A stretch of 61,932 nucleotides of DNA, from the NCBI GenBank assembly GCA_024404875.1, contig JAKSPK010000009.1, positions 1 through 61,932 on the forward strand, in the 5' to 3' direction. Origin of the DNA: Oscillospiraceae bacterium (lineage in GTDB: Bacteria; Bacillota; Clostridia; Oscillospirales; Ruminococcaceae). The position numbers and the translations under genes are program-made. Every line of letters starts with the position of its first letter. The first letter of the stretch is position 1. This document shows, piece by piece, positions 33,134-38,894 of this stretch. The notes beneath the pieces are model-generated. The model had not been told where the DNA came from. It searched no databases and saw nothing but the letters and a program-made list of their open reading frames with translations.

Positions 33134-33271
33134 GTCGGAAATCCACATCGTTCTAAATGACGAAGCATATATCAGCAGTGAAATGTGCTTTTTCGCGTGT
33201 GTGCGATGCTTTTACAGTTTCTGAATAAGTGATGATATTTAATAATATAGCATAGGATGTATCAACAAACA

Positions 33272-33382
33272 ATGAAAAAGCACGAAAATACGCTGCTTTA
33301 CAGCATTCACAAAACAACTGTTCTCAAGGCGATTCTGAAGAAATCAACTGCGGCAATTTGGTTACAAAACTGTAACCATTAG
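33272..33382 (+). CDS. Possible 36-residue cationic peptide
   Basis: The frame MKKHENTLLYSIHKTTVLKA... ends within the dyad upstream of the mraZ promoter. It is lysine- and histidine-rich with no membrane segment and no homologue that I recognise. The only purine-rich site (AGGA) is about 16 bases from the ATG and the candidate promoter is poor, so it may not be expressed. Confidence 0.15.
   Translation: MKKHENTLLYSIHKTTVLKAILKKSTAAIWLQNCNH
33360..33377 (+). promoter_or_regulatory. Dyad upstream of the mraZ promoter
   Basis: GGTTACA and TGTAACC are perfect 7-base arms around AAAC, ending 19 bases before the -35 element. Position and symmetry suggest an activator or repressor site; MraZ itself usually binds direct repeats instead, so another regulator is likely. 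Confidence 0.5.
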
Positions 33383-33396
33383 ATCAAAACTGGCTA

Positions 33397-33425
33397 TTGA
33401 CATTTAGCCAAGGATGATATATAAT
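33397..33425 (+). promoter_or_regulatory. Consensus SigA promoter of the dcw cluster
   Basis: TTGACA, 17 bases, TATAAT, a perfect match. It implies a leader of about 265 bases before mraZ. Confidence 0.92.
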
Positions 33426-33428
33426 ATT

Positions 33429-33697
33429 GACGAGGGAAGCGATGGCCGATCAACCACTGCCGTGGCATGAATTGGAATAAGATATACAACATCGTCAATC
33501 CTCGGAATGAACAAAAGCAAAGTGTGTAGAAGAGGAGAATCGAGACAGCAGGATGATGGTACCACCCCGCCTCGGTGTCCGGACATGCATAGCTGACGCC
33601 TGATCGAAAAAAATAGAAATCGTCAGGCGGCTTTGCATTCTGTTACCGGTCGGGGCATCCTCCCGCCGTGCTCGGCACGAAGGGAGGCGCTGATTGT
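33429..33697 (+). promoter_or_regulatory. Structured mraZ leader RNA (T-box-like features, sequestered ribosome site)
   Basis: The leader folds into an interrupted stem (CGAGG/CCTCG, CGATG/CATCG, CCGAT/ATTGG, CCAC/GTGG, 33431-33504) with a one-sided 14-base internal loop. It then carries TGGTACC at 33557-33563, the core of the T-box that pairs with tRNA ends, a hairpin CGCCTGA/TCAGGCG (33597-33629) without a T-run, and CCTCCC (33659-33664) complementary to the mraZ ribosome site GGGAGG (33682-33687). Classical stem I landmarks such as the AG bulge are missing, so T-box identity is uncertain; a structured regulatory leader is well supported. Confidence 0.5.
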
Positions 33698-34210
33698 ATG
33701 GAACTGAGCAGTATGTCAGGCAAATACTATGTTCAGATGGATCAGCGCGGCCGTATCAGCGTCCCAGCGATCATTCGCTCCTCAATCGGCGATACCCTTT
33801 TCATCTCCGAAGACCAGCGCAGCAGACATCACCTGGTGATTCGCTCCGAGGAAGGCTTCAATGCCGAAATGGAGCGTGTCCGTGAAATGTGCATCGCACA
33901 GAATCAGGATATCCTTGCACCGGACGAGCTGCTCGATGAGATCGAAGATGCGATGCGGGATTTCGCCGCTTATACGCAGAAAACTTCTCCTGACAACAAT
34001 GGCAGAATCACGGTCGAAAAGGCACTCATTGAATATGCAGAGCTCGGCGGCCGCATCATCGTGAACGGAGTCGGCAATTATGCCGAGATCTGGAACGAAC
34101 AGAGATTTGAGGAGAATATCGCGGAACACAGAAAGGGAAAGGAACTCAGACGCGCGAAAATCGACGCCGCACGCCGCGCACGCCGCGGTGAGGACGCGTC
34201 AGAAAAATGA
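33698..34210 (+). CDS. mraZ: Transcriptional regulator MraZ
   Basis: MraZ is a DNA-binding protein of the SpoVT/AbrB fold that controls the division and cell wall cluster it begins. Two tandem motifs are visible: YYVQMDQRGRISVPAIIR (about 9-26) and NNGRITVEKALIEYAELGG (about 106-124). At 170 residues it is longer than the common 143-152, with a basic C-terminal tail (RAKIDAARRARRGE). The ATG at 33698 follows GGGAGG by ten bases; ATG 33713 (MSGKYYV) matches family N-termini equally well but lacks a site. The stop is followed closely by rsmH. Confidence 0.92.
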   Translation: MELSSMSGKYYVQMDQRGRISVPAIIRSSIGDTLFISEDQRSRHHLVIRSEEGFNAEMERVREMCIAQNQDILAPDELLDEIEDAMRDFAAYTQKTSPDNNGRITVEKALIEYAELGGRIIVNGVGNYAEIWNEQRFEENIAEHRKGKELRRAKIDAARRARRGEDASEK

Positions 34211-36148: not shown

Positions 36149-36160
36149 CATAGAGTATCA

Positions 36161-36494
36161 CTGTGAAAGCCCGTACGGTTCAGAGGGCAGACGGTCGCGC
36201 TTTCACAGAGGCCATATATCAAAGTGTGTAGAACAAAAGAAACGGAGCAGCCTGCTTCACGGATCAGAAATAAAGCATACCGTGACAGGCAGGAGATGAA
36301 AGAAAGAAAGTCATCTCCGGACTCCGCGTGCAGAACAAAAGAAAAGGCAAGCGGAAGAAACGGTTCCGGCATTCGCCGGACGGACTGCATCGCAGCTCAC
36401 TGTGTATGCAACCAGGCTTGCCTGAACACAAATCGGGCGGAGCATTCAGTTCCGCCTTTTCTTTTTGCAGATTCATCGGAAGGGAGTGAGTGCT
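36161..36494 (+). promoter_or_regulatory. Multi-hairpin spacer/leader RNA before the pbp gene
   Basis: The 346-base gap is packed with perfect dyads: CTGTGAAAGC/GCTTTCACAG (36161-36170, 36199-36208), TCACGG/CCGTGA, GGAGATGA/TCATCTCC (36292-36299, 36311-36318), GGCAAGC/GCTTGCC enclosing TCCGGC/GCCGGA. It ends in a terminator. A direct repeat GTGYAGAACAAAAGAAAMGG occurs at 36226-36245 and 36328-36347. No gene is visible. This looks like a regulatory RNA or attenuator controlling the transpeptidase gene. Confidence 0.5.
36436..36466 (+). terminator. Intrinsic terminator upstream of the pbp gene
   Basis: GGCGGA and TCCGCC (36436-36441, 36451-36456) are followed by TTTTCTTTTT, about 30 bases before the GTG start. 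Lying inside the dcw operon, it is probably conditional. Confidence 0.75.
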
Positions 36495-38894
36495 GTGCCG
36501 GAAGCGGCAGGTAAAAATAAGCATACAAAGATTCATGCTTCCAAGAATCAGACATGGAAACGCGGCTATCGCTCCAAGGGGCCGTCCACGAGCATGAAGG
36601 TACGCGCTTATGTTCTGATACAGGGCTTCGTGCTGCTGAGCGCGATCGCCCTCAGCACAAATCTTGCGCGCATCATGCTGTTCCAGCATGATTACTATAC
36701 AGAAATGGCGAATTCACGCCAATTCGGAACGATCACGATCCCGGCGGCGCGCGGCTCGATTTATGATGCGACCGGTATGGTCGTTGCACAAAGCGCGACG
36801 GTTTACAAGGTCTTTCTGGATCCCGGCCTGTTCCGCAAGGAAATGGAGCTTGTCGAGAAGCGGAACGCGGAAAATGCAGAGAGTGATGAGAATAAGTCAG
36901 ATATCGTTTCGCCGGAAGCCGTCCGTCAGCAGCTTACCGAATATCTCGCCGAGATCCTTGAAATTGATGAATCCAAGATCAGCGATGCTTTTGACAAGGA
37001 AAGCAATTATGTCGTGCTAAAAAAACAGGTTGAAAAAAGCCGAGCCGACAAAATCATCGAATATATCAGCGATATCCGTGTACCGGGCAGCTCGCGCAGC
37101 ATCCGCATCTCGTCGATCAGCCGCGAATCAGATACCAAGCGCTATTATCCGCAGAATGAGCTGGCTGCATCGGTCATCGGCTTCAATAATGCAGACGGCC
37201 ATGGTTTCTACGGTGTTGAAAAGTATTATGACGAGTATCTTTCCGGCATCGACGGCAGAACCATTACCGCAAGGGATGCGAACGGCAATGAAATGCCCTA
37301 TCGGTATTCCAAGACCTATGCCGCACAGGACGGCGACGATGTTTATCTGACGATCAACATGACGCTGCAGACCTATCTTGAAAACGAGATCGGCAAAATG
37401 GTCGAGACCTACAAGGTCGGTAAGCGTGCCTGCGGTGTTATGCTCAACGCCAAGACCGGTGCGGTGCTTGCAATGGCCTCGGTCGGCGGTTTTGATGCGA
37501 ATGAACCCTATGAGATCTACGATCCGGCCGCAGCCGCAGAGATCAGAAGCATTAAGGATGAGAAGAAGCATGACGAAGCACTGAGTGAAGCGCGGGAAAC
37601 ACAGTGGCGCAACAAATGCGTCACAGAGACCTATATCCCCGGTTCCGTTTTCAAGGTCTATACAGCCTCTGCCGGTCTGGAGGAGGAAAAGGTCAACTAC
37701 GACACCGATTCCTTCACCTGCAACGGCAGCGTCGAAATCTCCGGCATACCGATCCACTGCTCGATCTGGCCCGGCGCACACGGCGTACAGAGCTTTGAGG
37801 ATATCCTGAAAAACTCCTGCAACCCGGCGTTCATTGAGATCGGCAGACGGCTCGGCAAGCAGCTGTTCTGTCAGTATTTCGAGGCATTCGGCCTGACCGA
37901 AAAGACCGGCATCGACCTGCCGGGCGAAAGCTCCTCGATCTATACCGCACTGTCCGGTATGGGCCCTGTTGAGCTGGCGGCGAGCTCCTACGGTCAGAAC
38001 AATTCACTCACTCCGATCGAGATGGTGACGGGTTATGCCTCGGTGGTGAACGGAGGCTACCTGCTGCAGCCTTTCGTGGTCAGCAAGATCGTCGATCAGG
38101 CGGGAAATGTCGTACTTTCCAAAGAAAAAACAGTGCGCCGGCAGGTGATCTCCGAGGAGACCTCCGCGAAAATGCGCAAGGCACTGCAATATGTCGTTGA
38201 CAACAACGGCGGCAGCAACAATGCTTACATCAAGGGCTACAAGATCGGCGGCAAGTCCGGTACAGCCCAGAAGCTCATGGGCTATGTCAAGGCAGGCGAG
38301 GAGGAGTATGCCGCTTCCTACTGCTGCTTTGCACCGGCGGATGATCCGGAGATCGTGCTGCTCATCATGGCGGACGAACCGGATAAGACGATCAGCTACT
38401 ACGGCTCGACGGTCGTTGCGCCGTATTCAAGAGCGGTGCTGGAAAAGGCACTGCCGTATCTCGGCTATTATCCCTCCTATACGCTGGAGGAGGAAGCACA
38501 CAAGGATATTACTGTTCCGATGGTCATTGACAATTCTCTTGCGGAAGCACAGAAGAAGCTTGAGGATCTCGGTCTCGGCTGGGAGGTCATTGGCACCGGC
38601 AACAGCATCAATGTGCAGATGCCCATGACTGGTACATCCGTTGCAAAGGGCGGAACAGTCATGCTTTACACCGGCAAGGCAGATAACAAGCCGACCGTAA
38701 CTGTGCCGTATGTCATCGGCCATACGCTGGCGGAGGCGAACACGCTCTTTGCTGAGGCTGGACTCAACTATGTTGCGAAGGGCTCTTTGAACCAGGATGC
38801 GACGATTCTGCTGCAAAGCGTCCCCGCAGGCACACAGGCCGAAAAATGGTCGGTCATCAGTGTCGATATCGGACACAATTCAGATGCCGGCTGA
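36495..38894 (+). CDS. Class B penicillin-binding protein (FtsI/SpoVD/PBP2x type) with two PASTA domains
   Basis: This septal transpeptidase crosslinks peptidoglycan outside the membrane. The 799-residue protein has a basic N-terminus, one membrane helix (about 36-57), a dimerisation domain and the catalytic domain with Ser384-Val-Phe-Lys387, SCN in LKNSCNP, and KSGTA at 587. Two C-terminal PASTA domains follow (about 675-735 and 736-795), as in SpoVD and PBP2x. GTG at 36495 is the likely start, eight bases after GGGAG. In the dcw cluster it is probably the division enzyme; a sporulation-only role is less likely since no second copy is seen here. Confidence 0.93.
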   Translation: MPEAAGKNKHTKIHASKNQTWKRGYRSKGPSTSMKVRAYVLIQGFVLLSAIALSTNLARIMLFQHDYYTEMANSRQFGTITIPAARGSIYDATGMVVAQSATVYKVFLDPGLFRKEMELVEKRNAENAESDENKSDIVSPEAVRQQLTEYLAEILEIDESKISDAFDKESNYVVLKKQVEKSRADKIIEYISDIRVPGSSRSIRISSISRESDTKRYYPQNELAASVIGFNNADGHGFYGVEKYYDEYLSGIDGRTITARDANGNEMPYRYSKTYAAQDGDDVYLTINMTLQTYLENEIGKMVETYKVGKRACGVMLNAKTGAVLAMASVGGFDANEPYEIYDPAAAAEIRSIKDEKKHDEALSEARETQWRNKCVTETYIPGSVFKVYTASAGLEEEKVNYDTDSFTCNGSVEISGIPIHCSIWPGAHGVQSFEDILKNSCNPAFIEIGRRLGKQLFCQYFEAFGLTEKTGIDLPGESSSIYTALSGMGPVELAASSYGQNNSLTPIEMVTGYASVVNGGYLLQPFVVSKIVDQAGNVVLSKEKTVRRQVISEETSAKMRKALQYVVDNNGGSNNAYIKGYKIGGKSGTAQKLMGYVKAGEEEYAASYCCFAPADDPEIVLLIMADEPDKTISYYGSTVVAPYSRAVLEKALPYLGYYPSYTLEEEAHKDITVPMVIDNSLAEAQKKLEDLGLGWEVIGTGNSINVQMPMTGTSVAKGGTVMLYTGKADNKPTVTVPYVIGHTLAEANTLFAEAGLNYVAKGSLNQDATILLQSVPAGTQAEKWSVISVDIGHNSDAG

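Follow-up and report, generated by a model that had tools for sequence, protein, structure and literature searches.

The closest described systems belong to Rhodobacter sphaeroides. According to the accessible parts of two reports, the mraZ leader of this bacterium has a length of 268 nt and forms alternative structures (PMC5089854), and the small RNA StsR binds the dcw leader UpsM and affects dcw expression (PMC8307010). The leader terminator yields UpsM as a small RNA, and StsR promotes cleavage by RNase E, as far as the accessible text of both reports goes (PMC5089854, PMC8307010). In the available part of the 2016 paper, long leaders with terminators were suggested only in Rhodobacteraceae (PMC5089854). 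Among the literature searched on mraZ and dcw leaders and on dcw small RNAs, only the Rhodobacter work was close. An initial annotation of the DNA studied here had regarded a sensing leader in front of a whole division and cell wall cluster as new. From what is accessible on UpsM and StsR (PMC5089854, PMC8307010), this does not wholly hold for a long regulated dcw leader as such; the present leader would form a case of its own, with a platform unlike that of the Rhodobacteraceae. It probably acts as a two-state RNA switch that is targeted in trans by a small RNA, with repression of mraZ translation as the predicted outcome. On the basis of sequence and modelling we assign this reading a probability of about 0.6.

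The window, that is the whole stretch of 61,932 nucleotides that was analysed, is a contig (G000:C104) whose closest MraZ relatives are metagenome-assembled Ruminococcus records. The whole analysis consists of sequence comparison and computed folding, mostly with incomplete genomes. Pfam assigned mraZ, mraW/rsmH, a DivIC/FtsL-like gene (under the Pfam cut-off), a PBP with transpeptidase and PASTA domains (here called ftsI), a Mur ligase and a family-4 glycosyltransferase (mraY-like). The mraZ leader comprises about 267 nt; it begins at about 33431, as deduced from the promoter, and ends at the start codon of mraZ (33698). The features of the locus are listed in Table 1. The perfect SigA promoter that the initial annotation had placed upstream of mraZ was borne out. 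The leader elements read there were all found again in place: an interrupted stem, TGGTACC (33557-33563), and CCTCCC (33659-33664) opposite GGGAGG (33682-33687) with CGTGC/GCACG between them. As a single sequence the leader folds only moderately better than chance (z -2.12; 8 of 200 shuffles were as good). CAAAACAACTGTTCTC at 33310-33325, some 90 bp ahead of this promoter, and similar AAAC-GTTC stretches of several relatives resemble a LexA box by eye.

Table 1 Features of the mraZ leader, the ftsL-ftsI junction and the small-RNA gene
Feature	Position	Strand	Basis
mraZ promoter, TTGACA-17-TATAAT	33397..33425	+	consensus letters 12/12
P1, closes transcript 5' end; CGAGG/CCTCG and GCGATG/CATCGT	33431..33504	+	own- versus swapped-arm energies
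Predicted small-RNA target: A-rich toehold, then P2 5' arm through GGATGA	33521..33557	+	computed duplex
P2 hairpin: GGATG 33551-33555, loop ATGGTAC 33556-33562, CACCC 33563-33567	33547..33571	+	pair counts
Antisequestrator: GGA.GATG 33551-33558 with CATC.TCC 33656-33663; CCCCG 33565-33569 with CGGGG 33651-33655	33551..33663	+	pair counts
Variable middle hairpin	33572..33649	+	sequence; terminator-like (by eye) in some relatives only
Sequestrator hairpin over ribosome site GGGAGG 33682-33687	33656..33690	+	pair counts
mraZ	33698..34210	+	MraZ, PF02381, E 5.1e-13
Second predicted small-RNA site, ftsL-ftsI junction	36224..36242	+	exact pattern match; R1 36225-36267, E 8.5e-4
Third predicted small-RNA site, ftsL-ftsI junction	36326..36344	+	one mismatch; R1 36327-36388, E 0.002
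Intrinsic terminator before ftsI/spoVD-type gene (start near 36495)	36436..36466	+	GGCGGA-loop-TCCGCC then TTTTCTTTTT
Small-RNA gene, window's genome	G000:C20:13098-13213; L094:1456-1573	opposite strand to motif	promoter and terminator found

The mraZ leader is a real, structured and conserved element. A match to MraZ was obtained in 29 of the 30 genomes of the genus (locus L030 lies outside it). In 17 of these 29 (L001-L017) the leader is of the GGTACC type, with a 5'-end stem, P2 with a (U/C)GGUACC loop, a hairpin that covers the ribosome site and an antisequestrator helix as competitor. The remaining 12 leaders are long and without this organisation. A covariance model (R1), built from 16 of the 17 leaders with L008 left out (contig cut), recovered all 17 at 50.9-72.1 bits. 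For the pair counts the 17 leaders were aligned without the middle hairpin (alignment A1). Pair counts together with own and swapped P1 arms support the structured leader with a sequestered ribosome site that the initial annotation had proposed, and show it to be conserved, with compensatory changes when related mraZ upstream regions are aligned. A short reading frame starting from ATGATGGTACC was ruled out; its ATG is lost in L004, L005, L006 and L008.

The interrupted stem P1 is formed by 33431-33444 with 33490-33504. Own arms pair with a mean of -16.4 kcal/mol, compared with -12.7 kcal/mol for swaps between species (28 species, L008 left out because of its cut contig), a difference reached by none of 20,000 permutations. 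In the leaders of the genus the transcript 5' end is able to pair with a stretch located 0-44 nt ahead of an A-rich motif, described below. TGG-type repeats with about 10-nt spacing were noticed by eye at 33432-33481, directly after the transcription start and inside the P1 loop. They may represent an MraZ operator, as a by-eye reading; an automated search for operator repeats found none.

Downstream of P1 the leader can adopt mutually exclusive folds. GGAUGAUG, which takes part in P2, can also pair with CAUC(C)UCC immediately ahead of the ribosome site, a pairing that was missing from the initial annotation. In alignment A1, P2 has the form AGC-A-GGAUG-(AUGGUAC)-CACCC-GCU. Over the 17 leaders 78.7% of its cells are paired, compared with 28-55% after sliding the arms; the shuffle mean is 76.6%, and 4 of 500 shuffles were as high. 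Its covariation score was matched by none of 500 shuffles. Two P2 pairs carry two-sided changes, and as many are seen in 347 of 500 shuffles. An A-C mismatch inside P2 is retained in 10 of the 17 leaders, which would make sense if each of the two bases is needed in the other fold. At 33556-33563 the loop of P2 contains GGUACC, a perfect 6-nt palindrome that is identical in all 17 leaders and has no role in the small-RNA model; a kissing dimer or a protein site is conceivable.

For the antisequestrator, counted in alignment A1 as GGA.GAUG with CAUC.UCC plus CCC with GGG, 95.7% of the cells are paired in the 17 leaders, compared with 33-56% for slid versions. The covariation score of 0.263 (versus 0.185) was reached by 0 of 500 shuffles, and the same holds for its seven cells with two-sided changes (versus 2.3). 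These changes concern three pairs, a number reached by 154 of 500 shuffles, and one slid version also has one pair with a two-sided change. They comprise U-A to C-G in L004, L005, L006 and L008, A-U to U-G in L015 and L017, and C-G to U-A in L015, and stem from two lineages only. L007 is short of one pair at columns 36/58 owing to the placement of an extra T. Whole-arm swaps between species were uninformative for this helix by duplex energy (cognate -11.0, other groups -10.6 kcal/mol), and pair counts were used instead. The sequestrator is paired in 90.0% of cells over the 17 leaders. Covariation was not detected for it: all 500 shuffles reach its score and one slid version scores higher. Its ribosome-site strand hardly varies among these leaders.

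TGGTACC, which sits in the apical loop of P2, had led the initial annotation to propose a T-box link and a leader sensing tRNA or another ligand. In T-boxes, UGG pairs with the CCA end of the tRNA and Stem I carries the specifier codon. Rfam gave no relevant match in the window, where the T-box model RF00230 found nothing, and no match at the gathering threshold in the mraZ loci of 11 relatives. Elsewhere in the same genome the T-box model detected five places (E 9.5e-25 to 1.4e-5, one above the family cut-off), none of them at mraZ; in the three of the five whose letters were read, the T-box is GGTACCGCG or GGCACCGCG. UGG is present in 13 of the 17 leaders and replaced by CGG in 4. By eye and with the T-box model, no specifier was seen in P1, which holds the TGG-type repeats. 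A T-box at mraZ was rejected, given no model match despite the positive control in the same genome and CGG in 4 of 17 leaders. A diverged T-box responding to uncharged tRNA would agree with the TGGTACC core and with a sequestrator/antisequestrator pair plus an unpaired GUACCA, as known from translational T-boxes. Nevertheless, it is hardly credible in view of these searches, of CGGTACC in the four leaders and of the pairing of the first U and G of UGGU in the antisequestrator, where that U covaries. Nothing indicative of a sensor for tRNA or for small molecules was found; the evidence favours a small RNA that acts in trans.

This evidence starts from the A-rich stretch at about 33520-33545, ahead of P2, which the initial annotation had not mentioned. 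It is a recurring motif, present at three kinds of place per genome: the mraZ leader, the ftsL-ftsI junction and, as its complement, a small-RNA gene. Allowing up to two mismatches, the motif pattern gave 110 matches in the 30 genomes of the genus, compared with 28 for the reversed pattern. At least 14 of 18 letters agree with the motif in 17 of the 29 leaders, compared with 2 of 870 shuffles. The best matches in 17 mraZ upstream regions of other genera have 10-13 of 18 letters and correspond to the level of shuffled sequences. In a genome-wide search with R1, run with stricter filters by which weak matches are lost, the places following the 17 leaders include the gap between the ftsL-like gene and ftsI, about 2.7 kb downstream in the same operon. 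A further place scores an identical 27.1 bits in many genomes. An identification of the 27.1-bit matches as rRNA was rejected; those read are the small-RNA gene.

This gene stands alone and encompasses about 115 nt with promoter, hairpin and terminator, the core being antisense to the A-rich motif. Its neighbours are an L31 gene on one side and a pyruvate:ferredoxin oxidoreductase gene on the other. In the window's genome (G000) its promoter is TTGACT-17-TATAAT (L094:1423-1451) and its intrinsic terminator (L094:1546-1567) has a 9-pair stem and a T-rich tail. The predicted small RNA begins with a 5' hairpin, which is followed by an open pyrimidine-rich core. The hairpin is paired in 97.1% of cells, compared with 32-54% when slid, none of 500 shuffles attained its covariation score, and the fold of the RNA is more stable than those of its shuffles (z -4.2). 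The exact core occurs in 28 of the 30 genomes of the genus; those without it are G018 (77% complete) and G021 (58% complete). Over about 35 nt the core is nearly invariant across many genera; in the set of small RNAs that was picked by an exact 22-nt core, the invariance is partly by construction. In a search allowing three mismatches, from which more diverged small RNAs would escape, 51 of the 55 places with the small RNA match the 23-nt pattern letter for letter. A second model (R2), built from 22 of 45 distinct transcripts, was found in 136 of 396 genomes and 33 of 126 genera of the family at E 0.001 or better, and in 14 of 295 genomes sampled from the order, all 14 belonging to this family; for these counts too, the stricter filters lose weak matches.

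No Rfam family reaches the threshold for this small RNA, and its core letters, in four spellings, were absent from the literature searched, a scope outside which most subscription journals lie; by topic, too, nothing relevant came to light there. Within Rfam and this literature it looks like a strongly conserved small RNA without a description. The core contains CUCCUUUCU, which we take to be the letters at the 3' end of 16S rRNA, and the small RNA could mimic the anti-Shine-Dalgarno sequence in this way. In another genus of the family (L143:490-690, G210:C15), three tandem, near-perfect target sites of the small RNA lie in a gap before a gene without Pfam match. The sequence suggests another target or a sponge.

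The pairing of the small RNA with the mraZ leader is well supported as a prediction from sequence and computed duplexes. In the window, leader and own small RNA form a duplex of -44.1 kcal/mol compared with a mean of -23.5 for 15 shuffles. The core can pair there over about 35 nt and through the P2 5' arm, which excludes both P2 and the antisequestrator. When the core is matched with the leader of its own species, the best duplex begins at the motif in 25 of 28 cases, the exceptions being L011, L020 and L027; L023 was left out, no small RNA having been found in that genome. The energies range from -24 to -44 kcal/mol with a mean z of -4.0, measured against the crude null of 15 block shuffles per leader, and 7 of the 28 duplexes do not stand out clearly from their shuffles (z above -2). 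As a complement to the 5' part of the core, the 11-nt P2 arm ranks first in 11 of the 17 leaders and within the best four in 16. It forms 10 or 11 of 11 pairs in 16 leaders, running on through GGAUGA; L015 remains at 7 of 11, as an extra G shifts the fixed window. Changes at motif A go to G, with retention of a G-U pair, in 27 of 48 cases at mraZ and in 12 of 21 at ftsI. Pair-breaking changes from G to A are equally frequent (27 and 12), 20 and 11 of these being at motif ends, and a pair-breaking C to G was found inside the motif in 8 of the 29 leaders.

In the proposed switch, GGAUGAUG and CCCG would pair with CGGG-CAUC.UCC ahead of the transcription of the ribosome site, so that the site would emerge free (ON). 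In the OFF state CAUC.UCC would pair with the ribosome site, GGAUG being held by P2 or by the small RNA. The latter would land on the A-rich toehold and zip through the P2 5' arm to GGAUGA. Bound there, it would exclude P2 as well as the ON helix, with repression of mraZ translation as the expected result. When the nascent leader is modelled at the stage shortly before emergence of the ribosome site, the mean probability is 0.42 for the antisequestrator and 0.29 for P2; P2 is strongly ahead (0.92-0.98) in L004, L005, L006 and L008. Covering GGAUGA lowers the antisequestrator from 0.42 to 0 and raises unpaired CAUC.UCC from 0.28 to 0.68. In the finished leader at equilibrium the ribosome site is unpaired with a mean of 0.08, whether the small-RNA site is blocked or not, and with at most 0.08 in 14 of the 17 leaders. 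Equilibrium folding of the finished leader shows no sign of regulation. Since the ribosome site is hidden either way, the switch needs co-transcriptional timing.

The opposite sign was also considered. A small RNA that opens P2 via the toehold and CAGC only would give GGAUGAUG to the antisequestrator and activate mraZ. With toehold and CAGC covered and GGAUGA free, P2 has a mean probability of 0.02 and the antisequestrator of 0.74, and the pairing of the small RNA with GGAUGA is rich in G-U pairs. However, the complementarity continues through GGAUGA with the 10 or 11 of 11 pairs reported above, which favours repression, and P2 is not favoured in the nascent RNA of several species; activation is thus considered unlikely. 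Less probable still is a cis-acting switch for a ligand or protein at the P2 loop, with the small RNA mainly altering RNA decay. This would give a function to the invariant GGUACC, for which the small-RNA model provides none, but in the window's genome the exact loop-containing pattern occurs only at mraZ (one match with at most one mismatch), and the A-rich motif is common to the small-RNA gene and the ftsI junction.

At this junction, repression of mraZ by the small RNA may have a counterpart: the two further sites ahead of the terminator may let the small RNA favour termination before ftsI. For the second site the computed duplex has -37.6 kcal/mol. Together with 20 relatives, which were chosen because they match, the window gives 21 junctions, whose duplexes with the G000 small RNA, used for all of them, range from -25.8 to -44.3 kcal/mol. 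A strict scan detected an intrinsic terminator ahead of ftsI in 17 of these 21 and none in L129, L130, L131 and L133. An antiterminator was recognised by eye in the window, where AAAAGGC..GCGGAA, downstream of the third site, is able to pair with the 3' arm of the terminator. The 346-nt gap before the ftsI/spoVD-type gene (36149-36495), with several hairpins and the terminator, resembles an attenuator leader within the dcw operon.

Beyond the switch itself, a wider scenario is offered tentatively, as possible rather than probable. A near-invariant small RNA, with the 16S rRNA-like letters CUCCUUUCU in its core, would have been recruited to the division and cell wall operon in one genus. Toehold strand displacement would flip two different expression platforms there, mraZ translation and ftsI attenuation, so that a single signal would determine how much early division protein is made relative to late. 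If this is true, the operon is under the action of one small RNA at two points in a group of gut bacteria. With the known precedent in another phylum, RNA control of this operon would then have evolved repeatedly. From the small RNA follow precise predictions of sites, of competing helices and of compensatory mutations.

With regard to known systems, translational T-box leaders share the competition of sequestrator and antisequestrator and the TGGTACC letters near the antisequestrator, whereas the mraZ leader has no match to the T-box model, does not keep UGG, and no specifier stem was seen in it. The small RNA is comparable to stand-alone trans-acting small RNAs with pyrimidine-rich seeds in its own promoter, 5' hairpin, exposed pyrimidine-rich core and intrinsic terminator; it differs in the near-invariance of its core of about 35 nt and in the lack of an Rfam family at threshold. 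An UpsM-type leader terminator that would release a small RNA was not found by a scan of the + strand of 33200-33900 in the window, and terminator-like hairpins were seen by eye in some relatives. As far as UpsM and StsR are described in the accessible text of the two reports, the common features are a long mraZ leader, alternative structures and a small RNA acting in trans, the last predicted here from sequence and computed pairing. In contrast to that system, the leader described here belongs to another phylum and combines a predicted ribosome-site switch at mraZ with extra sites at ftsI; the small RNA is another one as well.
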